Source of the DNA: a virus
DNA length: 34,524 nucleotides
IMG/VR virus record: IMGVR_UViG_3300003324_000362
Location: 1 to 34,524 of that record
Direction: 5' to 3' (one strand)
Shown: in pieces, positions 5,321 to 28,986 of the stretch
Layout: the number at the start of each line of letters is the position of its first letter
Position numbering within the stretch: the stretch's first letter is position 1
Position numbers and translations under genes: made by a program
The notes under the pieces: model-generated
The model's input: only the letters and a program-made list of their open reading frames with translations
Told to the model about the DNA's origin: nothing
The model's database searches: none

Positions 5321-5350
5321 TAGTTATAAAAAAAAAAATTTTTAATATAA
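5321..5350. other. AT-only tract, possible DNA-unwinding element
   Basis: A run made almost entirely of A and T, including a 12-base A tract followed by a T tract, lies in the middle of the inverted repeat. Such tracts next to short iterated motifs are a common sign of an origin's melting region. No replication initiator gene is in the window, so the assignment is circumstantial. Confidence 0.4.
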
Positions 5351-5430
5351 CTCACTGTCTCCCCGGCTAACTGTTCAAAATTTTTCTAAACGTAAGGAGA
5401 GACAGTGAGTTATAGGGAGACAGTGAGTTA
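5348..5430. repeat. Three copies of the 14-bp motif GAGACAGTGAGTTA, one inverted
   Basis: TAACTCACTGTCTC at 5348-5361 is the inverse of GAGACAGTGAGTTA at 5399-5412 and 5417-5430. The two direct copies are 18 bases apart. The left copy can pair with either right copy, giving a stem of 14 or more base pairs with a 37- or 55-base loop. Candidate roles are iterons for an initiator, operators, or a structured leader. Confidence 0.9.
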
Positions 5431-7770: not shown

Positions 7771-9351
7771 TTGTCCCACGACACCCCCGTCGGGGCATCC
7801 ATACCTGAGTCTGGCACAGGATCAATCACCCCTAATCCTGTTGAGACGTCCGACTCTGGTATAGCTTCTGCAGAGCTACAGGCACTGCGCAAAAAGCGCG
7901 CACTACTTCTGCGTGCTAAAGTCGACGCTATCAAGCGTGACGCGCTGCCGTGGTATCGTCCTCATCCAAAGCAAGACCTGTTTCATCGTTCGACCGCAAA
8001 GCGTCGAGGAGTTTTCACTGGCAATCGCTTCGGCAAGTCCCACATGGGGATCAACGAAGACGTAGCCTGGCTACGTGGCGAACGGCCTTGGTATCCCGAG
8101 TCCGACCCCGCACGCCGCTCCGGTATCCCTCAACACCCGGTCAAAGGTCTCATCATAGCCAACGACTGGGACAAGGTCCAAGAAATCTTCACCGGACCTG
8201 ATGGCAAACTCTGGCGTGCTTTGCCGGCCGAACTAATCGACACTCAGCATCGGAATCACTCCGGCGCGGTCGATCTGGTCGCCCTCAAGAACGGTTCTAC
8301 TCTTCGCTTCGATACCGTTAAGTCCTATCTCTCAAACCCACAGGGGCTTGAGTCTTCAGACTGGGACTTCATCCACGTAGACGAACCCTGTCCCGAGCCG
8401 ATGTTCAAAGCTGCGGCGCGTGGTCTTATTGACCGCAACGGCTCCGCTTGGTTCACTCTCACCGCTCTACGTGAGCCTTGGATCACCGACGCTTTTGAGC
8501 CTGGCGGTATCTTCTCGTTCTCTTCGTTCGTCATCGATGGGTCAATCTATGACAATATCTACCTTACTCGCGAGGCGATCGACGCGTACGAAGCTACTCT
8601 CACTGATGACGAGAAAGAGTGCAGACTATACGGTAAGCCGCTACATAAAGCTGGACTTGTCTACAAAGAGTTCCAGAGAGACAAACACGTGTTGTCGGCA
8701 CTACCTATCGGTTGGCAGTCGTGGGTTGAACCTCCCGTTGCGTGGTCCTACTACGCATACATCGACCCTCATCCCCACTTACCACATTGCGTGTTACTGC
8801 TTACCGTTGATCCGTTCGGAAATCGTTATTACTTCTACGACATATTTGAGAAGTGTCTCATCTCACAACTTTGTGCGCGGGTGCGCACTCTAATGGGGGC
8901 GCGGCGGTTTGTGCGAGTCCGCTGCGACCCCATCGCTTTTACAGAAGACCCTGTTCACGGTACCACAATGGCCGCAGAGTTTTGGCGGTGTGGACTAGCA
9001 GTTGAAAAGGCGTCTAAAGACTTAGCGCGCGGCATTCTTCGAGTCAAGGAGGAGTTAAAACGTGAATCTGGCTACATACGATTTTCACCAGAATGCCGCC
9101 GCAGTATTTGGGAGATTAATAGATATCACTGGGACGAAGAGACCAACAAGCCCGTTGATGCAGACGACCACGCAATGGAGTGTCTCTACCGCTCAGTACT
9201 CGACGAGCCTAGGTATGTCGAACCATCGTCGATAAAAGACTCCGTGCCGGATATAATCATTCCACGCACGCCGAGTCTATGGACAGACTCTGACCCTCTG
9301 AGGTTCGACGAGGTCGTGCTAACAAGAAACGATTTGATGCTTTCTGAGTGA
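7771..9351 (+). CDS. terL: Terminase large subunit: packaging ATPase and nuclease (526 aa)
   Basis: The motor that pumps DNA into the prohead and cuts the concatemer. The ATPase domain has a Walker A motif G84-N-R-F-G-K-S90, a Walker B motif F-I-H-V-D204-E205 and a coupling motif F-T-L-T-A-L (about 228-233). The C-terminal RNase H-like nuclease has its acidic residues in Y-I-D332-P, R-C-D386-P and D-A-D-D-H (about 463-467). Length is normal for the family. The start is uncertain: an in-frame stop lies at 7756-7758 and the first internal Met is at residue 92, past the Walker A motif, so the TTG at 7771 is the only reasonable start; it has no Shine-Dalgarno sequence. The gene ends directly at a phage palindrome. 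Confidence 0.95.
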   Translation: MSHDTPVGASIPESGTGSITPNPVETSDSGIASAELQALRKKRALLLRAKVDAIKRDALPWYRPHPKQDLFHRSTAKRRGVFTGNRFGKSHMGINEDVAWLRGERPWYPESDPARRSGIPQHPVKGLIIANDWDKVQEIFTGPDGKLWRALPAELIDTQHRNHSGAVDLVALKNGSTLRFDTVKSYLSNPQGLESSDWDFIHVDEPCPEPMFKAAARGLIDRNGSAWFTLTALREPWITDAFEPGGIFSFSSFVIDGSIYDNIYLTREAIDAYEATLTDDEKECRLYGKPLHKAGLVYKEFQRDKHVLSALPIGWQSWVEPPVAWSYYAYIDPHPHLPHCVLLLTVDPFGNRYYFYDIFEKCLISQLCARVRTLMGARRFVRVRCDPIAFTEDPVHGTTMAAEFWRCGLAVEKASKDLARGILRVKEELKRESGYIRFSPECRRSIWEINRYHWDEETNKPVDADDHAMECLYRSVLDEPRYVEPSSIKDSVPDIIIPRTPSLWTDSDPLRFDEVVLTRNDLMLSE

Positions 9352-9375
9352 ATCCTATTTAATAGGACAGACTCA
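9345..9375 (+). promoter_or_regulatory. Phage dispersed palindrome, copy 3 of 6
   Basis: The core TCCTATTTAATAGGA (9353-9367) has T in its centre instead of A. TGAGT (9345-9349) and ACTCA (9371-9375) pair outside a three-base mismatch. The left arm overlaps the stop codon of the large terminase gene, and the core begins two bases after that stop. It opens the unit of exported-protein genes. Confidence 0.85.
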
Positions 9376-9416: not shown

Positions 9417-9689
9417 ATGTACGGACAATCAGCTCCAGTATCCCTCTCGCTCGGTCAGCTCGGCTCTGAGATAATCGACGACACCGAGGAACACACCGGC
9501 GACTTTGGCATCATCTACGCCTTGCAGTCTTGTGTGATTGGCACACTAGTCACCGCCAACAAAGCCAACGGCGATCCGATCATGCGTGGGACTTTAACAT
9601 CCATCCCGTTGCCTGCTGGGGCGGCACTATACGGTCGATTCACTTCGATCACGCTTTCGTCAGGCTACGCATTCGCTTACGATATTTAA
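9417..9689 (+). CDS. Small beta-rich virion-like protein (90 aa)
   Basis: The C-terminal half is rich in small, beta-branched residues and ends with A-A-L-Y-G-R-F-T-S-I-T-L-S-S-G and A-F-A-Y-D-I, a pattern seen in small phage structural proteins located next to the large terminase gene. The whole protein looks like one beta barrel or sandwich. It has no export signal. Its position as the first gene after the third palindrome suggests it is a minor virion component, but this is inference. The leader is C/T/A-rich with the repeated word TAAACCTTT and no Shine-Dalgarno sequence. Confidence 0.65.
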   Translation: MYGQSAPVSLSLGQLGSEIIDDTEEHTGDFGIIYALQSCVIGTLVTANKANGDPIMRGTLTSIPLPAGAALYGRFTSITLSSGYAFAYDI

Positions 9690-9701: not shown

Positions 9702-9983
9702 ATGATGTCCCTTGGAATGCTCTGTGACTTAGTTCACATCGACGCCGTTGCCGTCGCGAGGCACCACCAAGGCGGCGACGACGAACCTGGAGACGAGACC
9801 GCTGGTGACGTACCAGTAGGCATCCTAACCGAAGACGATAAATTCATCCTAACCGAAGATGGCAAAGTCATTCAAGCCGAGAATATGCAACCTGCGATTA
9901 CTACGACCTACCAAGCTGGTGGTGAGGGCGGGGACTCGCTTGGCGGTGAAGGCGGGGATGTAATCGGCCCAGAGAACAACTAA
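9702..9983 (+). CDS. Acidic small protein with a duplicated I-L-T-E-D motif (93 aa)
   Basis: The central part holds I-L-T-E-D-D-K-F and I-L-T-E-D-G-K-V in tandem (about residues 41-56), a short hairpin repeat often seen in small phage proteins of the fibre region. The N-terminal 20 residues are mildly hydrophobic, and the C-terminus is an acidic, Gly-rich run with the repeated G-G-E-G-G-D. No family with known function is recognised. It may be a minor structural protein or a fibre-associated factor. No Shine-Dalgarno sequence. Confidence 0.6.
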   Translation: MMSLGMLCDLVHIDAVAVARHHQGGDDEPGDETAGDVPVGILTEDDKFILTEDGKVIQAENMQPAITTTYQAGGEGGDSLGGEGGDVIGPENN

Positions 9984-9992
9984 CTAGACTCA

Positions 9993-11024
9993 ATGAGACT
10001 CTTTCCTATGCTAACCAAGACTCAAAGACGCGAATCCCTACTAGCCGTGGCTGTTTTGGCGTTATTCTGCATTGCTGCCACGGTCATAACGAAAATCAGT
10101 CAATACCCCAACACCGCGACCCTATCCAACACTGACTTGTTTATTGTAGCTTCGGGTGCTACTAATAAGAACATCAGCTACTCTCAACTGCGATCACTAA
10201 TCTTAGCGAACCCCTTGGAGTTGAGTGGCGGTCTACGTCTAAGTGGACAGTCTAAAGAATTAACTGTCGAAGACGGCGAGCTCAAGCTGGATGGGGAGAG
10301 CGTGGGCGGGGGCGCTTGGGTGAACAGCTCAGGAACGCTTTCTCCATTGGAGTCAGTTAACACCCTGAAGGTCGCTGATAGCGAGGTAAAATTGCTGCTC
10401 GGTTCCTTTGCTGGAGCTGAGGCCACGCTGGCCGGGGATACCTATCTGATTGGAGATAATGCCGGGGGAAGCCTGAACAGTGACGGAACCGGTATCTATA
10501 CTTTCGGAGCGAATGGATTATTCGAGTCCACTCTAACAAACTCAACCCGTTACGTGTTCGCGATTGGCGTAGACTCGCTTCGTTCAGCAACATTAGATCA
10601 CACTCCGTGGGTTTTTGCCTACGGCGATACCGTCTTGAACGGAGCATCCCTAACCCAGGGTGGCGACATCTTTGCGTTTGGTGAAAGCGCTCTAGCTAAC
10701 TGCAGCCTGGATAGCAGCAGTGAAATCTTCGCTTACGGGTTAAATGCCCTGGCGGGTGCCACCCTCACAAACTCCCACAACGTGTATGCATTTGGCAATG
10801 CCGCGGGTCAGAATCTGTCTGGCACCTATAGCGATGTGGGTATTTTTGAGTTTGGCAACTTCAAGCTGCGACCAAACGGACAGATTGTTCTTGCTGGCCA
10901 GACCAACCAGATGGTCTTTGGCGCGACCAATGACCCTCCGGTTTCTTCCAGTGCACCAACGAAATGGATCAGTGTCCAGGTGCAGGGAGAATCGGCTGTC
11001 TACCGGCTACCACTCTATGAGTGA
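9993..11024 (+). CDS. Fibre-like protein with N-terminal membrane anchor and 19-residue beta-solenoid repeats (343 aa)
   Basis: An N-terminal basic stretch is followed by a hydrophobic helix (about residues 15-33) without a clear cleavage site, so it may be a signal anchor. Residues 34-70 carry a T-K-I-S-Q-Y-P segment like those at the base of phage fibres. From about 150 to 290 the motif (Y/F)-A-(F/Y)-G recurs with a nearly constant 19-residue period (second aromatic or aliphatic position at 171, 191, 210, 229, 248, 267, 287), as in a beta-solenoid. The C-terminus ends in W-I-S-V-Q-V-Q-G and R-L-P-L-Y-E, a common fibre tip. It probably binds a receptor or surface, but its localisation is uncertain. 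Confidence 0.7.
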   Translation: MRLFPMLTKTQRRESLLAVAVLALFCIAATVITKISQYPNTATLSNTDLFIVASGATNKNISYSQLRSLILANPLELSGGLRLSGQSKELTVEDGELKLDGESVGGGAWVNSSGTLSPLESVNTLKVADSEVKLLLGSFAGAEATLAGDTYLIGDNAGGSLNSDGTGIYTFGANGLFESTLTNSTRYVFAIGVDSLRSATLDHTPWVFAYGDTVLNGASLTQGGDIFAFGESALANCSLDSSSEIFAYGLNALAGATLTNSHNVYAFGNAAGQNLSGTYSDVGIFEFGNFKLRPNGQIVLAGQTNQMVFGATNDPPVSSSAPTKWISVQVQGESAVYRLPLYE

Positions 11025-11057
11025 GCCTTGAGAGCCTCGCTTCTCGCGTTCCTATGA

Positions 11058-11279
11058 ATGATTCTCCACTTTCCAGACCTTGACACAACCGAACTCACCA
11101 AGATCGGCCTCACCCAACGCCTCATTCTTAAAGCCCTTTTAGTCCGTGTACGCAAGCGAATACAAGAACTCCGATGGCAAGCTCGACGCGGTGCCACAGA
11201 GGTACAGCTCCGTAAAGCAGTCAAACTTGGCAAACAAGAGCGTGCCCTACGAGACGCATTAAATGAAATTCTTCGCTAA
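11058..11279 (+). CDS. Small helical basic protein (73 aa)
   Basis: A short Arg/Lys/Leu-rich protein predicted to be two or three helices (about 15-45 and 48-72), without export signal, the only protein of this block from 9993 to 17768 that appears cytoplasmic. No family is recognised. It could be a chaperone or assembly factor for its fibre-like neighbours, by position only. Its end overlaps the start of the next gene by 17 bases. Confidence 0.6.
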   Translation: MILHFPDLDTTELTKIGLTQRLILKALLVRVRKRIQELRWQARRGATEVQLRKAVKLGKQERALRDALNEILR

Positions 11280-11610
11280 AATACTACTAGTCGGCCTGCT
11301 AGCCCTCTCTGCACAAGCAGTCGGAGCAAAGCTACATCGTTACGTTCTTGGTTGGACACCAACCCCCTCGCCAGCGGCCACCGGCTATGGTCTTTACTGG
11401 CGCTCTGGCACGAACGCCTACAGCGACACCAACCGTTTTGGCATCGCTATTGGTAACACGACATTCGACCTTCGAACGCTCAACCTCCCTCCCGCACTCT
11501 ATTCCCTCGCGATGAGTGCGACGAACGACACTGCTGAGAGTGATCTTTCAGTTGAAGTTCAATGGGACGCGAGGATACCCTTTCCGCCAAGCAACCTTAA
11601 AATACAATAA
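11263..11610 (+). CDS. Secreted-type single fibronectin III-like domain protein (115 aa)
   Basis: A classical Sec signal peptide is present: K-F-F-A-K, a hydrophobic core L-L-V-G-L-L-A-L, then S-A-Q-A-V-G-A with likely cleavage after A-Q-A or V-G-A (about residues 19-22). The mature part is one beta-sandwich of FN3 type: a Trp in L-G-W-T-P near the start, a central Y-G-L-Y-W-R strand, and a final S-A-T-N-D-T-A-E-S-D-L-S strand pair, about 90 residues as usual. Such domains mediate adhesion to proteins or glycans. An FN3 domain as an isolated exported phage protein is unusual. Confidence 0.65.
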   Translation: MKFFAKILLVGLLALSAQAVGAKLHRYVLGWTPTPSPAATGYGLYWRSGTNAYSDTNRFGIAIGNTTFDLRTLNLPPALYSLAMSATNDTAESDLSVEVQWDARIPFPPSNLKIQ

Positions 11611-11612
11611 CT

Positions 11613-14246
11613 TTGAGAAACCTAATCGCCATTTCATTCATCCTTCTGACCTTAACCGCTAATGCGGCTAATTGGTATGTTCGGTATCCTAACGGCGGCA
11701 CTGGCACAAGTTGGGCCAATGCTGCTCCTGGATTCTGGGCGTTGACCTCTGTTGCTCCGGGCGATACGATCTGGCTTGCGGGCGGAACTGAGTTCCAAGG
11801 CACCATTGCCTGGTCCGGCACGGCTGGTAATCCTATCTCTATCAAGCGGGCTAGAGCCACTGAATCCGCCTGCACCAGCTCGCCTGGGTGGAACGTTGCC
11901 TACGACGCACAGGTAGTTATCAACGTCCCCTACGTGCAAGGCTCTCCACAACCAGGCTATCAATGCTGGCAGAACTATGTTCGAATCGACGGTATGGTGG
12001 CTGACGGGATCAAATTCGTCTTTTCAACTCCGACCAACGATTGGGCCAACCAAACCTCTACCAAACAAATGGGCATCTGGGGTGGAGGTAGCCACTGTTC
12101 GGTCTCGAACGTAGAATTCCAAGGCTCGGTCACACCCAACAATCAGGAAGGTGTGGACTGGGGTGACTTTAACCGCTTCGGTCAGTTAGACGATCTCACC
12201 TTGAGCCACCTAAACATTCACGGCTGCTCCAACGGCTTTCAGATCGGTGACATTGACCATCTGACGGTGGAGTACTGCGAAATCTCTGTGCTTAACGGCA
12301 ACACCGCCAACCATGACAACGGCTCTTACACGTTCGGCAACCTGGGCTGGGGCATCTGGCGCTACAATTACATGCACGATTTTTCGTCGTTCGGGTTTGC
12401 CTTGATTGCCTCGTTGATCGGTCAGGCCAAACCGCACGACTGGCAAATCTACGGTAACGTTTGGCAGAACACCGCCCGCCCAGGTTCCGGTCAAGCTTTA
12501 GTATTCGACAACGCCTGCTCAGACGTTCCCTGCCAACTGCCCGCCACATTCGAAGTCTATAACAACACCTTCGTCAACTGCGCGATCGGAGTCCGTGCTG
12601 AGAGCCGTTGGCCAGTTCAATTCCCAGGCAGCAGCGTGGCCGGTGGGCAGTTCAAAAACAACATCGTTTACAGCGCCCCGTATCTAGGTGGCCTCCTGAC
12701 GCACGACTATAACTGGGTCAACCAGTCGACCATGTATGGCTACGGAGTTGAAGCTCACGGAGTCATCAACGGCTTTGATCCGTTCGTTAACCTGTCCGGC
12801 AATGACTTCCACATTCGTTCCTCTAGTACCGCTCGAGACAGAGGCGTAGCCCTCGCAGGCGAGTTTGCCACAGATAGAGACGGTAGCACTCGTGGCTCAG
12901 ACGGCTTGTGGGATATAGGTGCATACGAATTCGTGGGCTCCAACGGCGGAGCTGGGAGCTTTGCCTTTAGCGTATCGAGTCAAACTGTAGTCCAGAACAC
13001 CGGTCAAGCTATTATAACCGTCAACCGCAACGGGGGAGCGAGTGGGGCAGTAACCGTTACTGCAACCACCGCTAACGGTACCGCTTCCGCTGGCACGCAT
13101 TATACTGCTACAACGCAAGTCCTATCCTGGTCAGACGGCCAAATAGGGGCAAGGTCTTTCGCCGTTCCTATATCTACTGTGCCAACAAGCACCTCAGACC
13201 TAACATTCACTGTAGGTCTCTCTAGTGCCACAGGAGGAGCTTCGATTAGTACTCCTAGCACACAGACCATCACAATCCAAATGAATAGGCCGACAGCATA
13301 CTTATTCTCAATCGGTTCTTTACTGCCTAACAGCGGCGTAGCTATAACCGTCTCGCCATCAGACATCAACGGTCAAGCGAATGGTACGACAGCTTTCACT
13401 CGCTCATTCTATAGTGGGACAAGCGTGACCCTTACCGCTCCATCGACCGCAGGCGGTAATAGCTTCCTTAAGTGGCTGAAAGACGGCGCTGACCTCTCAG
13501 GTAGCCAGAGCGTAGTCACAACCGCCGATGCAGCACATACTTACACAGCCGTCTACGGCCCTCCACCGCCTAACGTGTTCACTTTAACAATCAACTCTAT
13601 CCCAACAGGCAAGGCGATAACGGTCTCTCCAAGCGATACCACGGGAGCAACGAACGGTACCGCCCCCTTTACACGCTCCTACACCGATGGCACCGTAGTC
13701 AGCCTAACCGCCCCTTCGTCCGGCTTTGCTAAGTGGCAAAAGAACGGCACTGACCATGCTTTAACTGCCGCCACAACCGTCACCGTCGATGCTTCCTATA
13801 CAATGACGGCCATTTACAACGTTGCCAATGCGGGCACGATAGCCTTGAGTGCGCCATCGTATCAGACACATGAGACTAATGGGACCGTGGTAATCACAGC
13901 CAATCGCACTGGGGGGACGAATACAACGACCGCGGTCTCTTATGCCACAGCTAGCGGTTCAGCCGTAGCTGGAACAGACTTCACTTCTGTTTCTGGCACT
14001 CTTTCCTGGGGAGCAAACGAAAACGGTGCAAAAACCTTCTCAGTTCCGATCATTAACTCCGGCACATTCGCAACAAAGCCCAGAAGCTTCACCGTTATGA
14101 TAGCCAATCCTACCAACGGAGCTCAGCTTGGACTGTCCCAAGCTACCGTTTCAATCTCAATGCTAATCCCTATAGGCGTAGGTACCGCTGTTCGGATAGG
14201 CGGTCACACAGTCTATGGAGGCAACGTCAGCTTTGGGAGCCATTAA
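11613..14246 (+). CDS. Exported parallel beta-helix protein with Calx-beta and InlB-like repeats (877 aa)
   Basis: Starts with TTG two bases after the previous stop. A signal peptide (M-R-N-L-I-A-I-S-F-I-L-L, cleavage after A-N-A at about residue 18) precedes a right-handed parallel beta-helix of about 420 residues. That region has pectate-lyase-like N-N-T-F-V-N-C and N-N-I-V-Y repeats and ends in W-D-I-G-A-Y-E-F. It continues with a Calx-beta domain (about 450-555), two similar repeats containing A-I-T-V-S-P-S-D and F-x-K-W (about 560-740) resembling bacterial InlB/Listeria-Bacteroides repeats, a second Calx-beta domain (about 745-850) and a short Gly-rich tail. A depolymerase or adhesin role at the cell surface is plausible; no catalytic residues can be assigned. 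Confidence 0.75.
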   Translation: MRNLIAISFILLTLTANAANWYVRYPNGGTGTSWANAAPGFWALTSVAPGDTIWLAGGTEFQGTIAWSGTAGNPISIKRARATESACTSSPGWNVAYDAQVVINVPYVQGSPQPGYQCWQNYVRIDGMVADGIKFVFSTPTNDWANQTSTKQMGIWGGGSHCSVSNVEFQGSVTPNNQEGVDWGDFNRFGQLDDLTLSHLNIHGCSNGFQIGDIDHLTVEYCEISVLNGNTANHDNGSYTFGNLGWGIWRYNYMHDFSSFGFALIASLIGQAKPHDWQIYGNVWQNTARPGSGQALVFDNACSDVPCQLPATFEVYNNTFVNCAIGVRAESRWPVQFPGSSVAGGQFKNNIVYSAPYLGGLLTHDYNWVNQSTMYGYGVEAHGVINGFDPFVNLSGNDFHIRSSSTARDRGVALAGEFATDRDGSTRGSDGLWDIGAYEFVGSNGGAGSFAFSVSSQTVVQNTGQAIITVNRNGGASGAVTVTATTANGTASAGTHYTATTQVLSWSDGQIGARSFAVPISTVPTSTSDLTFTVGLSSATGGASISTPSTQTITIQMNRPTAYLFSIGSLLPNSGVAITVSPSDINGQANGTTAFTRSFYSGTSVTLTAPSTAGGNSFLKWLKDGADLSGSQSVVTTADAAHTYTAVYGPPPPNVFTLTINSIPTGKAITVSPSDTTGATNGTAPFTRSYTDGTVVSLTAPSSGFAKWQKNGTDHALTAATTVTVDASYTMTAIYNVANAGTIALSAPSYQTHETNGTVVITANRTGGTNTTTAVSYATASGSAVAGTDFTSVSGTLSWGANENGAKTFSVPIINSGTFATKPRSFTVMIANPTNGAQLGLSQATVSISMLIPIGVGTAVRIGGHTVYGGNVSFGSH

Positions 14247-14247
14247 A

Positions 14248-15549
14248 ATGAAACAACTATTCACAAAAGCTACGGTTTTCCTAGCCACGGTTCTATGCTC
14301 CGTGAGTGTATTTGGAGCGACCGGCAGTATCAAGATAAGTGCCCTTCCGTCTATCACTGGAGCAACAGATGACGGACTGTTAATCATCGACTCTCTTGAA
14401 GGTGGGTTGACTAACAACACTTATAAGATTCGAGTCGGTGACTTGTTTGCCGGGCGTGACAACGCTTCCATAACGATAATGAACGTTACGAATATCTATG
14501 TAACATACGTTGTCTCGAGTAACACGATCAGCGCGAACATTCAAGGCACGACGAACAAGGTGCCGATATTCGGACCGGATTCGTTTTCGTTGACTGATTC
14601 TATTATAACTCAAGACAGCACTAACGGTATCACAGTGGCCGGTGCAGGTGATGGATTCGTTACTTTACGCAATGCTGACTCCGACGAAGCCACTATGGAA
14701 ATCGACACAGACGGAAATTGGATTGTAGACTCCACCGGAGACTTCTTCTTCAAGAACGATAGCACGACATTGTTAAAAGTCTCTGCGACGTCCGGATACG
14801 CTGGCGGTGGAACCAAAGTCCTTACTGATGACGGAACGTATAAGTCCGTCTCTGCTGCAGGTGGTGCTGTAGGAGCTAACCCAACCGCAAGCATTGGATT
14901 GTCGGCTGTCAACGGCAGTGCTGCAACGTTTATGCGTTCAGACGCTGCGCCAGCCTTAGAATCAGTAGGAACTCCAGGCACTTACGGCGACAGCACGCAC
15001 TTTATAGGCGTAACTACAGACGCTGCAGGCAGAGTGACTGCCGTGACCACAACAGCCTTACCAGCGGGGGTGAGTGCAGCTAATCCTACTGCTAGTGTTG
15101 GACTAACTGCGGTCAATGGTTCCGCATCGACCTTCCTGCGATCTGATGGCGCTCCGGCTTTAAGCCAGTCTATCGCGCCCACGTGGACCGGAGCCCATGT
15201 CTTTGACAGCACTTTAACAGTCAACAAAGGAATGGTGCAAACTTTGGAAACCGTTTCCTATAACGCCTCGACTACCATTGACCTAGATCCTACCGCTCAC
15301 CCTAACATGCGAGTAGAGACTCTCTCCGGGAACCTTACTATTTCAGTTAGTAACAAGGCGGCTGGTCGGTGGTTCACTCTCTTTATCGTGGGAGATGGAT
15401 CGAGTCGCACGCTTTCGCTTCCTTCGTGGAAGTTCATGAATATCACTGCTCCCACGACCCTAGCAGCAAATAAAACAGCGTCTCTAACCGTCTTCTACAC
15501 CGACGGCACCGACGCCAACGCGATTGCTAACTACGCTGTTCAGCCATGA
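14248..15549 (+). CDS. Tail-fibre-like protein with Sec signal peptide (433 aa)
   Basis: The ATG at 14248 is chosen over an upstream one because it begins exactly with a signal peptide (K-Q-L-F-T-K, core V-F-L-A-T-V-L, cleavage near V-F-G-A, residue about 22) and has a GGGAG ribosome site. The mature part starts with a K-I-S-A-L-P-S-I fibre-base motif. A 30-residue module around N-P-T-A-S-(I/V)-G-L and F-(M/L)-R-S-D appears twice (about 220-250 and 285-315), with T-T-D-A-A-G-R-V-T-A-V between the copies, both typical of phage fibres. The C-terminal domain (about 340-433) is a beta-structured tip. A phage fibre with a Sec signal is unexpected. Its stop overlaps the next start as ATGA. Confidence 0.75.
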   Translation: MKQLFTKATVFLATVLCSVSVFGATGSIKISALPSITGATDDGLLIIDSLEGGLTNNTYKIRVGDLFAGRDNASITIMNVTNIYVTYVVSSNTISANIQGTTNKVPIFGPDSFSLTDSIITQDSTNGITVAGAGDGFVTLRNADSDEATMEIDTDGNWIVDSTGDFFFKNDSTTLLKVSATSGYAGGGTKVLTDDGTYKSVSAAGGAVGANPTASIGLSAVNGSAATFMRSDAAPALESVGTPGTYGDSTHFIGVTTDAAGRVTAVTTTALPAGVSAANPTASVGLTAVNGSASTFLRSDGAPALSQSIAPTWTGAHVFDSTLTVNKGMVQTLETVSYNASTTIDLDPTAHPNMRVETLSGNLTISVSNKAAGRWFTLFIVGDGSSRTLSLPSWKFMNITAPTTLAANKTASLTVFYTDGTDANAIANYAVQP

Positions 15550-16985
15550 TACGCTCTGCTTTAATTCTATTGCTCGCGACCAGCGTCCACGCTGGCCTGC
15601 CAATCGCTATCTCTGATACGAGTTGGCCTGGAGGTACAGTTAGCTACGAAAACCTTCTACCTCCCGGTATCGCTTTGCGTTGGCGTTCCACAGATTTAGC
15701 TAATACTACGTCAGTCTCAAACTGGATTGACGAGATACAAAGCTATCACTGGACACAGACTACCAATGGCAGCATGCCTACATGGACTACCAACGGGGTT
15801 TATTTCAACGGAGGAAACATTTTGGTAGCTACAAACATGGATACATGGACGGCTACCACAGAGACAGGAAGTGGTGTCACTCCAACTGCTTGGCTACTAA
15901 TTGGTCGTTACTATAGCACTGTTCCTGGTTCGATGTTCTTTGCTGATCGTTGGGAAGGCGGAAGAATCTTTATTGGAATTGGTGATGTAGACTCTTATTT
16001 CTATGAAGGCACTCGTGGCAATTCTGCAGTAGGTGCCCTAAGCTCGGACGTGGACTTCGATCTGCTAACTTGCAAAACCACCCTCTCTCCAAATGCGTAC
16101 CAATTTTATACCAACGGAGTTTCCGGATGGGAAACAAACTCAGGCTGGAACGCCGGAGCGTCCAAGTTCTCACAAGTCGGCCTTAATTTACAGGGACTAA
16201 TCAAAGAGGTCATCGTTTGGAGTAATGCAGTTTTTACCACTACTCAGGTTGCTAATATCCACTCTTACGCGACAAATGTTTACACGCCTTCTTACCTTGC
16301 CAACAGTGCCGTCTTTGATGGTTCTAACGACTACATGCGATTAAGTAGTGCTGGACCATCTGGGTTGGCTGATGGAAAGCAATTTACCGTCTCGTTTTGG
16401 GTTAAGTTTGCTGGAGCTAACGGTTCGGGAGGGGTAATCTTAGATCTTGGAACTGGAGGTACAGTTAGACTTCTCGTATCACGCAATGCTTCGGACCAAA
16501 TCAGGCTGCTTGGCGTGAACTCAGCGTCCTCAGCTATACTTGACCTGCATGGTTCTTCTTCGGTTACTAGTGCAAGTGGATGGGTGCATATTTATGCTTG
16601 CATTGATCTTACAGATACAGCAAAACGAAAAATCTACATCAATGGTGTTGCCGAGACTCTTACGGTTACTACATATTCCAACGATACTATTGATTTCGTA
16701 GGGGCGTCGCATCTGTATACTGTCGGTGCTGATCTAGATACTCCTCCAGTTTTCAAGCTCAATGCAGCCTTGTCGGAATTTTGGTTTAACGACGCTTACT
16801 TTGACGACCCTACAAAGTTTATTTCTGGCGGACGTCCAATCAGTCTGGGTTCTGATGGTTCAACTCCTACCGGCTCACAACCAGTTTTCTACTTCCGGCG
16901 TTCAGGGGACTCTTTTGCTGTGAATCAGGGAACAGGTGGGAATTTTACAGTAACTGGTAGTCTAGGCACCACAATACCTCCATAA
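15546..16985 (+). CDS. Secreted-type concanavalin A/LamG-like protein (479 aa)
   Basis: A short signal peptide (I-R-S-A-L-I-L-L-L-A-T-S with cleavage after V-H-A, residue about 16) is followed by two lectin-like jelly-roll regions. The second is the clearer: F-D-G-S-N-D-Y-M-R-L near its start, F-T-V-S-F-W-V-K-F, and K-I-Y-I-N-G-V further on (about residues 255-420), the usual LamG landmarks. The first half (about 40-230) has a similar but more degenerate pattern, including Y-F-N-G-G-N and V-I-V-W-S-N. Such domains bind glycans. The ATGA overlap with the fibre gene suggests the two are made together. Function is inferred from fold only. Confidence 0.75.
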   Translation: MIRSALILLLATSVHAGLPIAISDTSWPGGTVSYENLLPPGIALRWRSTDLANTTSVSNWIDEIQSYHWTQTTNGSMPTWTTNGVYFNGGNILVATNMDTWTATTETGSGVTPTAWLLIGRYYSTVPGSMFFADRWEGGRIFIGIGDVDSYFYEGTRGNSAVGALSSDVDFDLLTCKTTLSPNAYQFYTNGVSGWETNSGWNAGASKFSQVGLNLQGLIKEVIVWSNAVFTTTQVANIHSYATNVYTPSYLANSAVFDGSNDYMRLSSAGPSGLADGKQFTVSFWVKFAGANGSGGVILDLGTGGTVRLLVSRNASDQIRLLGVNSASSAILDLHGSSSVTSASGWVHIYACIDLTDTAKRKIYINGVAETLTVTTYSNDTIDFVGASHLYTVGADLDTPPVFKLNAALSEFWFNDAYFDDPTKFISGGRPISLGSDGSTPTGSQPVFYFRRSGDSFAVNQGTGGNFTVTGSLGTTIPP

Positions 16986-16988
16986 ACG

Positions 16989-17291
16989 ATGCACTTCTCT
17001 TGGGAATTTACTCTTGGCAATCTGGTTACCGTTGTAGCAGGCATCGTAGCCTTAATAGCCGGCTACGTTAAAATGGGTGACAGAGTTGATGTAGCAGTCT
17101 CCCGCCTCGACAAACAAGAGAAGGAAATGGATGAGTACTCTAAACTCTCCATCTCAGCAATGTTGAACCAACACGAGCGTCGCTTGGTAGCGATTGAGAC
17201 AGCAGTCTCGAATATTGCAGCCATTCAAGCGGATATTGGTTGGATAAGGATGTTTATTTCCAAAACTCAAGCCGACAAGAATGAAAATTAA
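16989..17291 (+). CDS. Membrane-anchored coiled-coil protein, possible inner-membrane spanin or holin-associated (100 aa)
   Basis: One membrane helix (about residues 8-27, L-V-T-V-V-A-G-I-V-A-L-I-A-G-Y) is followed by a charged coiled-coil region (about 30-80) exposed on one side of the membrane. This topology fits an i-spanin or a holin accessory protein, and the next two genes encode a holin-like protein and a lipoprotein, making up a typical lysis cassette. It could also be a virion or membrane scaffold protein. No Shine-Dalgarno sequence; its end overlaps the next start by 11 bases. Confidence 0.6.
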   Translation: MHFSWEFTLGNLVTVVAGIVALIAGYVKMGDRVDVAVSRLDKQEKEMDEYSKLSISAMLNQHERRLVAIETAVSNIAAIQADIGWIRMFISKTQADKNEN

Positions 17292-17502
17292 CTGGGAAAA
17301 GTGGTGTTACTACAACGCCGACATGTTCATGCGACACCTTGGCACCGCCATGATGGCGAGCGTAGGATCGTTATGGGTCGCTGGCGAGCTGCAAGTAAAA
17401 CCATTCCTAGTCGGTCTCATAACCGGCGCGATCCTTCCCTCGATAGCTACAATACTTAAAAATGGTCTACCAAAACCTGACGACGACGAATGCGATACCT
17501 AA
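17281..17502 (+). CDS. Holin-like small membrane protein (73 aa)
   Basis: A Trp/Lys-containing N-terminus leads to an amphipathic or short membrane segment (H-L-G-T-A-M-M-A-S-V-G-S-L-W-V-A, about 19-34). A second hydrophobic helix follows (F-L-V-G-L-I-T-G-A-I-L-P-S-I-A-T-I-L, about 42-59), then a charged D-D-D-E tail. Two membrane segments and a charged C-terminus fit a class II-type holin that permeabilises the inner membrane at lysis. Placement between a coiled-coil membrane protein and a lipoprotein strengthens this. Holins are too diverse to be certain. Confidence 0.6.
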   Translation: MKINWEKWCYYNADMFMRHLGTAMMASVGSLWVAGELQVKPFLVGLITGAILPSIATILKNGLPKPDDDECDT

Positions 17503-17768
17503 TTCTACTAGCCCTTCTCTTGCCGTCCTGCACTAGTATTCATGTCACCAAGACATTCCCTGATGGCTCCAAGGTTGACGCCTTTGCAGGATCACTATTC
17601 GCCACGACAGCTATCAAGAGCCTATCCATAGACAGCACCAGAAAGTCCTCGTCAGGACTAATCAACGCGTCCGGATTTGCTACTGATCCAGACCAAGAAG
17701 CTATCACAGCAAGCGCCAACGCAATCGGACAACTTATCGGCGCTGCCGCTCGTGCCGCTGCAAAATAG
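17490..17768 (+). CDS. Small lipoprotein, possible outer-membrane spanin subunit (92 aa)
   Basis: The N-terminus M-R-Y-L-I-L-L-A-L-L-L-P-S-C is a lipoprotein signal with the lipobox L-P-S-C, so the mature protein would be lipid-anchored at Cys14. The rest is Ala/Ser-rich with a likely beta part (V-D-A-F-A-G-S-L-F-A-T-T) and a C-terminal amphipathic helix rich in Ala. With the upstream coiled-coil membrane protein it could form a two-part spanin, although classical Rz1 proteins are more Pro-rich. It is the last gene before the fourth palindrome. An endolysin is not seen nearby; the cysteine protein at 947-1408 is a distant candidate. Confidence 0.6.
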   Translation: MRYLILLALLLPSCTSIHVTKTFPDGSKVDAFAGSLFATTAIKSLSIDSTRKSSSGLINASGFATDPDQEAITASANAIGQLIGAAARAAAK

Positions 17769-17770
17769 CC

Positions 17771-17797
17771 AGTCCATCCTATTAAATAGGATCAACT
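17771..17797 (+). promoter_or_regulatory. Phage dispersed palindrome, copy 4 of 6
   Basis: The core TCCTATTAAATAGGA (17777-17791) has an added A/T pair and outer AGT/ACT arms across two mismatches. It fills almost the whole 33-base gap between the lipoprotein and portal genes. The portal ATG follows the core by exactly ten bases (TCAACTCCTT), the same spacing as in copy 5, and no Shine-Dalgarno sequence is present. Confidence 0.9.
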
Positions 17798-17801
17798 CCT
17801 T

Positions 17802-19871
17802 ATGGACGACATAGTCAAAAGAGCTCTAGAACTGGAAGACCACACTCCGTTCCACAAGCAAATGCTTGAGGACACTCTTACGCTTGTGCGACTCTCTCGT
17901 AACAAGATGTCAGAGTACTACGCTCAGTGGGACAAGAACGACGAAGTCTACCGTGCGATTCGTAAACGAGACTCCGAAGACATCAAAGCTGGTGAGCGTG
18001 GCGAACCCGAGAAGATGGTCGTTCCGATCTCGTTCGCACAAGTTCAAACGTTCGTTGCTTTTCTCTACTCTCTTTACATGCAACGGGATAGGTTCTTTGA
18101 GCTAACCGGATTCACTGCCGAAGACGAAGAGCCAGCCAAGGTTGCCGAAGCCCTGCTCGCACGTGACCTTTCAAAAAACTGCATCGAGGCGGTGCTGACC
18201 CAATTCCTACTCGACGTTGGCCGTTTTGGTTTAGGCATAATCAAAACCTGCTGGGTTACAGAGTCCGGCCTCGTTGAGCAAGAGCAATTCACCCCTGGCA
18301 TGTCTGCCGAAGGCGTCAACCTTTCCCACGACTCTTCTGAAACTTTCGTCGATCAAGGTATAACCTATGAGGGTAACAAGCTTACCAACATCTCTCCTTA
18401 CCGATTCTTTCCAGACGTTCGGTTGCCTCTCGTGCGCTTCCAAGAAGGCGAGTTCTGTGCTAGCGAAGATATCTACACTCATTCTCAGCTCAAGAAGTGG
18501 GAGAAAGAAGGCGTTGTCGCGGGTGTTAATTTTATCAAACCCGCAGGAAAAGAATGCACCCCAGACAGAGGGTATCGTTGGGAAACGGATTTGGATAACG
18601 GAGGAGCGTTTAGTAACGACGCCAATACCCGTGGTGATGGTCAGCTCAAAAAGAACATCATCATAACCGAAGTCCAGCGCAACATCATTCCGAGTGAGTA
18701 CATGATCGAGGACAAGCCACTCGGAGAAGAAGACTATCCAGTCAAATATGTCATTTGGGTCGCTAACGACAACCGCATCATTAAATGCGAACCAATGAAC
18801 TACATGCACGGGCAGTTCACATACTCACTCGCACCATTTCTATTCGACAACAACCTTCTAGTTTCGTTCTCGTTGTCAGACGTTATGGACCAGTTACAGT
18901 CCGTTATCTCTTGGTTCATCAACGCCCGCATCACCAACGTCCGCAAGGTCATCGGTGACAAGCTCATAGTTAACCCAACAATGGTTAACATGCAGGACTT
19001 AAAGGAACGTAAGCCAGTCATTCGGCTTTCTGCAGCAGCTACTGGTGAGATCGACCGTTACATCAAACAACTAGCTCTTGTAGACGTCACCGCTACCCAT
19101 GTGCGAGACGTTAAAGACCTACACGACATCCTAAAGATGGTCACCGGAATCAATGACTCTCTACTCGGCGAAGTGCGTCCAGGCAAACGATCAGCTACCG
19201 AAAATCGCAACACCACTACCGGAGCAGCTCAGCGTCTCAAAACCATCGGTGCTGTCATCTTTAGATTCGCACTAGAACAAATGGGTCGTCAAATGCTTTA
19301 TAACCTACGTGACGGACTAGATAATCAAACCTACGTCCGTATACTCGGCTCTAAGGCAGCAACAACCCCTGCATTCATTCAAGTCGACAAAGCCTCTATG
19401 CTTGGTCACTACGACTTTGAGGTATTCGACGCGACGCTCCCATCCGAACGTTATCTAACAGCGCAAGCTTTAGAGGAGTTCGTGCCTATTCTGTTACAGA
19501 ATCCACAAGCCGCGGTACTCCTTAACCTTGATCCACGTAAAATCATCAATGAAATCCTAACCCTTCGCGGTGTGCGTAACCCTGAGCGATTCTCTCTACG
19601 CCCGCCGGGAGCAGCACCCGACGCAAATGCTACAGACCCAACCTTACTCGCACTCGCAGGACAACAGTCAGCCGCATCTGCTAGCCCAGCAGGCTCAACA
19701 GGTGGCGCATCAGCAGACTCCTCTGCCTCTTCCACCGGACCCGGAGGACCAGCTTCGGGGGTTTCTCAATCTTTACCAAAACCCCTTCTATCTCTACTTA
19801 CTAGCGGCGCTCCTAGTGGAGGAGCGAACGGCAACGGCGGAGGTGTTCGAAGGCCAGGCACAGGATACTAA
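17802..19871 (+). CDS. Portal protein (689 aa)
   Basis: A large head-tail portal of podovirus type, which forms the dodecameric DNA gate at one capsid vertex. The N-terminal part (E-Y-Y-A-Q-W-D-K-N-D-E-V-Y, about 40-52, then V-P-I-S-F-A-Q-V-Q-T-F) is the conserved start of these portals. A central region containing W-F-I-N-A-R-I-T-N-V-R-K (about 370-382) and G-E-V-R-P-G-K-R-S-A-T-E (about 456-467) corresponds to the stem/crown region. Residues 600-689 are low-complexity Ala/Ser/Gly, overlapped out of frame by the next gene. The gene opens the head module directly after a palindrome; the scaffold and capsid genes follow. Assignment rests on length, motifs and gene order. Confidence 0.88.
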   Translation: MDDIVKRALELEDHTPFHKQMLEDTLTLVRLSRNKMSEYYAQWDKNDEVYRAIRKRDSEDIKAGERGEPEKMVVPISFAQVQTFVAFLYSLYMQRDRFFELTGFTAEDEEPAKVAEALLARDLSKNCIEAVLTQFLLDVGRFGLGIIKTCWVTESGLVEQEQFTPGMSAEGVNLSHDSSETFVDQGITYEGNKLTNISPYRFFPDVRLPLVRFQEGEFCASEDIYTHSQLKKWEKEGVVAGVNFIKPAGKECTPDRGYRWETDLDNGGAFSNDANTRGDGQLKKNIIITEVQRNIIPSEYMIEDKPLGEEDYPVKYVIWVANDNRIIKCEPMNYMHGQFTYSLAPFLFDNNLLVSFSLSDVMDQLQSVISWFINARITNVRKVIGDKLIVNPTMVNMQDLKERKPVIRLSAAATGEIDRYIKQLALVDVTATHVRDVKDLHDILKMVTGINDSLLGEVRPGKRSATENRNTTTGAAQRLKTIGAVIFRFALEQMGRQMLYNLRDGLDNQTYVRILGSKAATTPAFIQVDKASMLGHYDFEVFDATLPSERYLTAQALEEFVPILLQNPQAAVLLNLDPRKIINEILTLRGVRNPERFSLRPPGAAPDANATDPTLLALAGQQSAASASPAGSTGGASADSSASSTGPGGPASGVSQSLPKPLLSLLTSGAPSGGANGNGGGVRRPGTGY

Positions 19872-24200: not shown

Positions 24201-25367
24201 ATGGCGACTTATCCACGACTTAATCCCGCAACGTTAGCAAATCTGCTACCAGTCATTGATGACCCAGCAGACACAGAGGACTCTAACAAGCTTGCACAGG
24301 TAGACCTACAAACCCGAAGGTTTGTCTACGACTATCTGTTCTTGAAGTTCGACTCGTCGACTGAAAAGCTCAAGCCTGGAGTGGTCGATGATACAACTCT
24401 GGCCGGTAAGGTCAAAGGTTCGACTGGGAATGCAGGGACACAACAGGGGATAGTTCAGGGTACTATTTCAACTCCTGACCTACGCGACGATGCTGTGACA
24501 GGCACTAAGATCGCAGATGGCACGATAGGCACCGATCATATTGCAGACGACGCCATAAACGGAGCGAAGATAGCTGACGATGCAGTCACTGCGGATCACA
24601 TAGCTAATAACTGCATTACAGCTGATCAGTTAGCAGCTAACTGTGTCACTGCCGCAGCGTTGAAAACTGGAGCCTCTGATGGCGCAGTAACAACTTCTCA
24701 CATCCGTGACGATGCAGTCACTGCTGACAAGCTCGCAGCCAACTCTGTAACCGGAGATGCACTTCCAACTTGCACATCTGGTCAACTATTAGTCGGCGGA
24801 TCAGATAACAAATTCGCTGTTAAGACTCTCTCAGGAGATGCAACTCTTGACAACACTGGACGAATAACCCTAGTCTCAAAGAACGAGTGCGAACTTGTCG
24901 AACGTGCCAATAACGCAACCAGCGGTGGTGGCGCTTCGAGTACGACCTGGCACGTTCGAGGTAACACTCCAGCCCCTGCGTGGATCGAAGCTTGGCGCGT
25001 ACCGACTGGAGCATTTGCTACCATCGGCGCGAGTGGGAAGGTCTCTCTGCCGGCAGGCACATACGTCGTTGAAGCCACAGCACCAGCTTACAAGGTAGGT
25101 AAGCATATCTGCCGTCTGGTTCGCTACAATGTCTCCGACGTGGTCCAAGAAACCTTCTATGGCACCTCAGAGGTCAGCGCGGCTGCGGATGGCGTTCAGA
25201 CTCGCACGCGTGTATGTGCCAAGATAACTGTTGGAGCGTCGACCGACTACCTTAAACTCGAGCACTACTGTGAAGCCGCGGAAGCGTCCGACGGACTTGG
25301 GTTAGCATCGTCCTCAGGCGGTACGTACGAAGTCTATGCCACAATGCACATTCGCCAGGTTGCCTAA
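24201..25367 (+). CDS. Trimeric fibre with decapeptide repeats and C1q/TNF-like tip (388 aa)
   Basis: Residues 1-55 probably attach to the virion. From about 94 to 188 a ten-residue repeat of the form D-D-A-V-T-x-x-K-I-A occurs about nine times, with one longer insert. Short repeats of this type form intertwined trimeric beta structures in phage head fibres. The C-terminal region (about 245-388, starting with A-W-I-E-A-W-R and holding L-P-A-G-T-Y-V-V-E-A) looks like a C1q/TNF-like jelly roll, a frequent trimeric receptor-binding tip. It lacks a signal peptide, unlike the fibres at 9993-16985. It sits between the connector and the nozzle and closes the head module before a palindrome. Confidence 0.75.
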   Translation: MATYPRLNPATLANLLPVIDDPADTEDSNKLAQVDLQTRRFVYDYLFLKFDSSTEKLKPGVVDDTTLAGKVKGSTGNAGTQQGIVQGTISTPDLRDDAVTGTKIADGTIGTDHIADDAINGAKIADDAVTADHIANNCITADQLAANCVTAAALKTGASDGAVTTSHIRDDAVTADKLAANSVTGDALPTCTSGQLLVGGSDNKFAVKTLSGDATLDNTGRITLVSKNECELVERANNATSGGGASSTTWHVRGNTPAPAWIEAWRVPTGAFATIGASGKVSLPAGTYVVEATAPAYKVGKHICRLVRYNVSDVVQETFYGTSEVSAAADGVQTRTRVCAKITVGASTDYLKLEHYCEAAEASDGLGLASSSGGTYEVYATMHIRQVA

Positions 25368-28358: not shown

Positions 28359-28598
28359 ATGAATTTCCTAAAACAGCTTGAATCTCCTGAGTTGCCTAAC
28401 CCGACGTTTGCTGATTCGTCCAAAGACGATGCTCCTAGGATATTGACCTTACAGCCAGCGACGACTATCCGTCCACTTTCGTGGAACGTAACTCAAGACG
28501 GCACGGCTTACCAAACGTTCGGTGCGCCGCAAACTACCAAGCCGCAACCAGGTAACCCTCGTCGACCGCTTTCTTTGGAAGAGAATGACGACCGTTGA
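28359..28598 (+). CDS. Small Pro/Thr-rich protein, unknown (79 aa)
   Basis: A polar protein rich in Pro, Thr, Ser and Asp, starting three bases after the previous stop. Its end overlaps the acetyltransferase start by 14 bases. It has no domain that I recognise and is probably extended or disordered, with P-R-I-L-T-L-Q-P-A and R-P-L-S-W-N-V in the middle. It may be a minor tail or assembly factor. Confidence 0.55.
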   Translation: MNFLKQLESPELPNPTFADSSKDDAPRILTLQPATTIRPLSWNVTQDGTAYQTFGAPQTTKPQPGNPRRPLSLEENDDR

Positions 28599-28986
28599 AC
28601 GTATAACTGGTCTAGAGGAGTTCACCAAACTCTGGCCGCACTTAGCGGACAACGCTCCGAGCACAGTTCCAGCGGAGGAACTTTTGCACATGTCGTTGTC
28701 GTGCTTGAGTCATGGGGTGATATTTGTCTGTAGAGACTTTGGGCAGCTAATTGGACTGTGTTGCGTGTTACGTGACGGAGAGGAAGCAACTTTGGTTAGT
28801 ATTCCACGCGAACGTGGTGGCAAGTATGGACAACGCTGCTTAGCAGCGGTTAAAGACTGGGCTAGATTAGTCGGTGTTAAATCTATTTCTGTTACATCGA
28901 CTAGACTGTCTGGTTCTAGTTATAAATACTTTGAGAAAGCTCTGGGTTTTCATAGACACTCTGTAACATTCAAAAAGGAACTCTAA
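28585..28986 (+). CDS. GNAT-family N-acetyltransferase-like protein (133 aa)
   Basis: The protein shows the core of a GNAT fold: a strand V-I-F-V-C-R-D-F-G-Q-L-I-G-L-C-C, a strand A-T-L-V-S-I, then the acetyl-CoA loop R-G-G-K-Y-G-Q-R-C-L (about 74-83) and the final F-E-K-A-L-G-F motif near residue 121. The loop is close to the usual (R/Q)-x-x-G-x-(G/A) form. The start at 28585 (GGAAGAGA before the ATG) is chosen over an upstream one that would overlap the neighbour by 77 bases. GNAT genes are found among podoviral tail and internal virion genes; the substrate is unknown and may be a virion protein's N-terminus. Confidence 0.75.
   Translation: MTTVERITGLEEFTKLWPHLADNAPSTVPAEELLHMSLSCLSHGVIFVCRDFGQLIGLCCVLRDGEEATLVSIPRERGGKYGQRCLAAVKDWARLVGVKSISVTSTRLSGSSYKYFEKALGFHRHSVTFKKEL

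Follow-up and report, generated by a model that had tools for sequence, protein, structure and literature searches.

A block of fibre-like and lectin-like proteins with predicted export signals between the terminase and portal genes of a tailed phage

The genes between TerL and the portal gene

The window, i.e. the whole stretch of DNA that was analysed, is an entire IMG/VR record of 34,524 bases, and its marker genes comprise a small terminase (phrog_2538), TerL (7771-9351, plus strand; phrog_5653, 1.5e-6), a portal or head-tail connector protein (17802-19871, plus strand; phrog_332, 3.2e-23) and a major head protein (phrog_1328). From this layout we infer a short-tailed, T7-like virion. Between TerL and the portal gene lies a block of genes, all on the plus strand, which opens with two small proteins without signal: the first (9417-9689; phrog_34166, 2.5e-6) belongs to the family of the gene that follows TerL in the related phage L023 (E 3.4e-8), the second (9702-9983) is acidic and has no family match in Pfam or PHROG. 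Five larger genes follow, and a recheck confirmed the coordinates that the preliminary description had given for all of them. The gene at 9993-11024 encodes a fibre-like protein in which an anchor-type signal (approximately 10035-10088) precedes an ISxLP fibre N-terminal domain (residues 33-72) and repeats. It is followed by a putatively exported protein of 115 aa (11263-11610; predicted Sec signal 11263-11319) and by an 877-aa protein (11613-14246), likewise predicted to be exported, which has a TTG start, a Sec signal (11613-11666), two Calx-beta domains and eight cysteines in its mature part. The tail-fibre protein at 14248-15549 has a Sec signal (14248-14316), then IKISALP and fibre repeats of the type NPTASVGLTAVNGSAST..PTWTGAH, and the last of the five (15546-16985) is a LamG lectin-like protein with a predicted Sec signal (15546-15593) and two cysteines.

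The surface-type folds that had been proposed for these proteins were recovered in part: Pfam identifies the two Calx-beta domains (1.5e-28) and the LamG domain of the 15546 protein (PF13385, 1.3e-12), but the FN3 of the 11263 protein, which is FN3-like by eye only, the beta-helix of the 11613 protein and the beta-solenoid of the 9993 protein have no match in Pfam or PHROG. Phage fibre motifs are indeed present in the two proteins for which they had been claimed. The repeats of the 14248 protein have counterparts in many phage fibres, with E values as low as 6e-46, and residues 33-72 of the 9993 protein match the profile of the fibre N-terminal domain (iE 2.7e-4). An extended version of this profile gives a weak match to the 14248 protein, equalled by 1 of 1000 shuffles, which weakly suggests that this protein, too, has the start of an ISxLP domain. 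Single-sequence AlphaFold models of the mature 14248 protein (pLDDT 36) and of residues 19-445 of the 11613 protein (pLDDT 33) were both unusable, and a search for close relatives of these two proteins among viral contigs returned none.

Three small genes close the block. Those for a membrane coiled-coil protein (16989-17291), which is XhlA- or spanin-like with sub-threshold matches only (XhlA 0.15, holin/anti-holin 0.1), and for a holin-like membrane protein (17281-17502), recognised by the hydrophobic core in its sequence, belong to no family above threshold; the lipoprotein that had been proposed behind them (17490-17768) has the lipobox LLPSC and no significant family match, and L003, L006, L016 and L023 have lipoproteins in the corresponding position. 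Exported superinfection-exclusion lipoproteins of the T5 Llp type are single small proteins that block the receptor.

Export signals were called with home-made predictors based on our own rules, and these call a signal in all five proteins described earlier as starting with a Sec-type signal or membrane anchor. Under these rules (positively charged n-region, hydrophobic core and a site of the A-x-A type), four of the five appear cleavable, with candidate sites in the sequences of the proteins at 11263 (LSAQA|), 11613 (LTANA|), 14248 (SVFG|A) and 15546 (SVHA|). The N-terminus of the 9993 protein (RRESLLAVAVLALFCIAATVITK) is anchor-like and has no good cleavage site, so that its signal may be an anchor. 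Outside the cassette, the signal-peptide calls of the first rule fell on spurious antisense frames only. A second, uniform caller was positive on the same five proteins and on the 17490 lipoprotein, and negative on an ordinary tail fibre without signal from the structural module (24201-25367, plus strand; phrog_892, 1e-21), which is conserved in L002-L006, serves as the in-genome control and received only a weak hydrophobic call from the first predictor. By a hand count, signals are borne by six of nine cassette proteins vs none of the 22 other likely genes (Fisher p = 1.1e-4). Wrong starts or spurious frames were considered for the cassette genes and rejected, because these genes abut almost without gaps and because the mature N-terminus in relatives is conserved behind a diverged signal.

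Relatives and the borders of the block

The preliminary description regarded the block as a cassette inserted as a unit and bracketed by palindromes. Copies of the palindrome TCCTATTWAATAGGA do stand at 9353 and 17777: the third (TCCTATTTAATAGGA, 9353-9367) where the cassette unit begins, the fourth (17777-17791) 10 bases before the start codon of the portal gene, where L003, L006 and L013 have a diverged equivalent. However, the window contains six copies (5121, 5671, 9353, 17777, 25386 and 31435; 0.09 expected), and the others precede further units. The palindromes mark the starts of transcription units in the window, and insertion of the block as a unit between them is not supported. The relatives have a version of their own, GTCATTAAATGAC, a few bases before TerL, the portal gene and a tail gene; in the form GGTCATTAAATGAC(C) it is found at 1606, 7779 and 12851 in L003 and at 1300, 9504 and 14579 in L006. 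Both versions have the centre ATTAAAT in common but not the arms, and each is found shortly before equivalent genes (TerL or the cassette, the portal gene, the tail gene). The palindrome is probably a promoter or operator, and from the comparison of the two versions its half-site specificity looks to have switched.

Related phages were examined for the same block, as had been suggested. Among relatives gathered by portal and TerL searches, signal-bearing proteins of diverged sequence occupy the same position at TerL identities from 71% (L003 and L006) down to 47%. L003, L006 and L013 (TerL 71%) present the same succession of signal-bearing proteins, membrane coiled-coil protein, holin-like protein, lipoprotein and portal gene, and signal-bearing blocks composed of different proteins are found in L016 and L020 (54%), L021 (50%) and L030 (47%), the last including a GDSL hydrolase (3.4e-10). 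L023 (TerL 49%) has a LamG-like protein (by eye) without signal at the position of the block; TerL adjoins the portal gene in L024-L026 (TerL 40-44%) and in cultured Vibrio and Microcystis phages, and one small gene separates the two in Caulobacter phage Kuura. A recent insertion was rejected, since relatives with TerL identities as low as 47% have a block in the same position. A mobile cassette should be absent from close relatives and have borders of its own; here, relatives possess the block and the palindromes also stand at other units. Since the blocks occupy the same place and consist of different proteins, they represent an old locus of the clade, and one that evolves fast. Two neighbouring genes may be mentioned: L021 encodes a caspase-type peptidase-like protein (by eye; 13610-14398) between its exported block and the portal gene, and L030 a GH75-type chitosanase-like protein (by eye; 10714-11190) directly before the portal gene.

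How the signals evolve was followed in fibres of the relatives, which carry this comparison because the five proteins of the window have no homologues suited to it. Between the fibre genes of L003 and L006, the signal is identical at 6 of 18 residues and the first 40 mature residues at 30 of 40, with hydrophobicity retained, a pattern which, read from these sequences, is that of a cleaved signal and not of a domain. The fibres of L016, L019 and L020 exhibit the opposite pattern: 15-17 of the 18 residues of the hydrophobic stretch are identical and the body varies, therefore an anchor role is possible in these fibres. In the three genes concerned (L016 10291-12054, L019 4671-6083, L020 11898-13385), the N-terminal hydrophobic stretch and the C-terminus are conserved and the middle is exchanged, which suggests domain swapping between conserved ends.

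Signal-bearing fibres in unrelated phages

Fibre motifs behind signal peptides, first reported for this window, recur in many unrelated phages. One match of the 14248 repeat was to phage MW202444, whose backbone is unrelated and whose fibre, downstream of a Phage-tail_3 protein, starts with a signal, and IMG/VR was therefore surveyed with three fibre motifs: the 14248-type repeat, a cysteine-flanked LRGDG motif (LWSGTC..FLRGDGSC) and the cysteine-free version of the latter. The final counts were made with the second, uniform caller because the first predictor had missed clear survey signals (L160, L164); the second likewise misses clear signals (L156, L183, L006) and is positive on 90 of 749 neighbouring ORFs of at least 200 aa, some of which are genuine cassette partners. 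With deduplication by N-terminus only, and some contigs present in two surveys under different ids, a signal was called in 12 of 70 fibres with the repeat motif and in 48 of 54 with the cysteine-flanked motif vs 13 of 71 with its cysteine-free version (Fisher p = 6e-16); most of the six uncalled cysteine-flanked fibres show a signal by eye.

These proteins share their repeats and the ISxLP N-terminal domain with ordinary tail fibres (e.g. phrog_892), from which they are set apart by the Sec signals and, in the wider class, by paired cysteines. A profile built from 13 signal-less fibres, in which the ISxLP domain begins at residue 1, detects the same domain a short way after the signal in L146, L156, L162, L168, L174, L183 and L213, so that, judged by sequence, the signal looks as if placed in front of an ordinary fibre. 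The position of the genes is that of a tail-fibre locus in L077, L152, L155 and L069, unlike in the window, where they lie between TerL and the portal gene: the signal-bearing fibre follows a few genes after DUF2612 (1.3e-52) in L077 and one gene after the tail protein phrog_4271 (4.8e-139) in L155, and in L152 genes for the baseplate wedge phrog_6 (4.9e-60) and for structural proteins immediately precede it.

Among complete fibres that contain cysteines, the number of cysteines is even in 8 of 8 with a signal vs 19 of 45 without in the repeat-motif set (Fisher p = 0.004), in 10 of 12 vs 6 of 32 in the cysteine-free-motif set (Fisher p = 1.5e-4) and in 40 of 43 vs 3 of 6 in the cysteine-flanked set. 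Only the last of these sets was selected for a cysteine pair, and since a pair adds an even number, selection alone cannot make the total even. Partner genes from runs of at least three signal-bearing genes, which were not selected for cysteines, are even in 22 of 28 cases (p = 0.002). The clade of the window is uninformative in this respect (4 of 9 even; the clear values of the window itself are 8 and 2). Even counts are as expected if disulfides pair in an oxidising compartment outside the cytoplasm.

Runs of at least three signal-bearing genes occur at 20 survey loci, several of them near-identical. L186, L192, L206, L174, L172, L209 and L294, contigs of unrelated uncultivated phages, have three to five consecutive large signal-bearing genes, and some runs hold members that are LamG-like or beta-helix-like (YYVSPSGSDSNNG) by eye, in cassette-like loci as in the window. 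Cultured phages with related fibres, portals or motifs yielded no convincing signals on fibre-like proteins, the sole call among those checked (Caulobacter phage Kuura, L009) being a false positive by eye, and no cultured relative of the signal-bearing fibres was found.

Possible roles of the exported proteins

In the textbook view, the virions of tailed phages are built wholly in the cytoplasm from proteins without signals. The coat proteins of filamentous phages are virion proteins with Sec signals, but these phages represent a different virus class, assembled at the inner membrane and without lysis. Our data make export of the cassette proteins of the window well supported as a prediction, and the fibres considered here would very probably pass through Sec. 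The occurrence of signal-tagged fibres in unrelated phages suggests that some tailed phages may build fibres outside the cytoplasm. Searching the open-access PMC literature, we found no published description of signal-bearing tail fibres; the description of Verrucomicrobia phage P8625 reports no signal peptides whatsoever, and for the target proteins of diversity-generating retroelements the absence of a signal peptide was taken as support for phage origin (PMC6199706). A precedent for export is Lys44, the endolysin of phage fOg44, which has a cleavable signal and is exported by the host Sec during phage development, as we propose here; it differs in being a lysis enzyme and not a fibre or lectin (PMC6116005).

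We tentatively favour, at slightly less than an even chance, a reading in which the block is a late unit, adjacent to holin-like and lipoprotein genes, that produces tail-fibre proteins and lectin-type partners as Sec-exported precursors, which would fold in the periplasm and, at lysis, come into contact with virions or cell surfaces. Late in infection, the host Sec pathway would carry the precursors through the inner membrane, their signals would be removed and they would fold in the periplasm, in many of the relatives with disulfides. There they would wait, because they have no recognised outer-membrane sorting signal, until the holin and spanin-type proteins break the cell. Once released, they would encounter virions that had been put together in the cytoplasm and would most probably attach to them as accessory receptor-binding fibres, this docking being the least certain step. 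If export is granted, we consider the chance of docking close to even. A comparable case is T4, whose fibres can join particles that lack them in vitro (PMC3004832). Against the favoured reading stand the ordinary fibre that is already present (24201), the cultured phages with no convincing signals on their fibre-like proteins, and the 9993 protein and fibres of the L016 type, which look like uncleaved anchors. That a widespread class of tailed phages makes receptor-binding fibres via the host secretory pathway, with periplasmic disulfides and trimerisation and with addition to virions at or after lysis, so that the final assembly step would lie outside the cytoplasm, we regard as possible but rather doubtful.

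Alternatively, the proteins might be exported and never enter virions, acting as free or envelope-bound lectins and depolymerases that coat the infected cell, block receptors on debris or against superinfection, or digest matrix and thereby let progeny spread. This is a serious possibility, if short of probable: it would account for the repertoire of lectins and hydrolases (LamG, Calx-beta, the GDSL hydrolase of L030), for the adjoining lysis-type genes and for a normal fibre encoded elsewhere in the genome, and N-termini of the anchor type suit display on a membrane. Free depolymerases diffuse from plaques (PMC6116005), and WceF of Pantoea stewartii, a trimer with a beta-helix of the tailspike type, has a signal that is cleaved on export, although it is encoded by a bacterial gene, has a Tat signal and serves its host as an enzyme that trims exopolysaccharide (PMC7949094). 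Such a role explains less well why repeats specific to fibres persist behind the signal together with the N-terminal domain of fibres, and why the signal-bearing fibre of other phages is encoded immediately after genes for the baseplate or tail tip, in the location of virion fibre genes.

It is improbable that the hydrophobic N-termini have nothing to do with export and instead anchor fibres of cytoplasmic assembly to the virion or serve in their oligomerisation. The dense fibre motifs and the poor cleavage sites of the 9993, L016, L019 and L020 proteins, the latter three with an almost unchanged stretch (15-17/18), would fit such a role, which the 9993 stretch may have; for the four cleavable signals it is the least likely. 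The classic cleavage sites in four of five proteins argue against it, as do the diverging signal residues between L003 and L006 under constant hydrophobicity, the even cysteine counts and cysteine motifs that accompany the signal in the wider class, and the homologous signal-less fibres, whose very first residues belong to the domain found after the signal in the others. Least probable of all is host-origin cargo, i.e. captured genes for host surface proteins with signals of their own, serving the host or the lysogen. Secreted proteins of bacteria often contain Calx-beta and LamG domains, and the block has few matches to phage families, but the 9993 and 14248 proteins carry phage-fibre domains, phages whose TerL is 47-71% identical have the block in the same position, and a TerL search of genome contigs turned up no prophage.

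Export of the fibres would shift where and when the final step of tailed-phage assembly happens, would mean that annotation filters assign such genes wrongly, and would allow receptor-binding proteins to contain disulfides. Given the patterns of cysteines and N-terminal domains, the idea can be tested directly on a single cultured phage, and the same patterns provide a simple search rule for more such fibres.

Clues to the host were sought in tRNAs of the window and in TerL relatives in genome contigs, neither of which were found; Verrucomicrobiota would be a guess from protein style only and is not claimed. A three-arm inverted repeat (TAACTCACTGTCTCCC / GGGAGACAGTGAGTTA) occupies 5346-5430 of the window, within a long gap that separates the minus-strand genes from the late genes. 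Among the genes for internal virion and tail proteins, the window encodes a small acetyltransferase-like protein (by eye; 28522-28986), and L002-L006 have a similar gene at the matching place.
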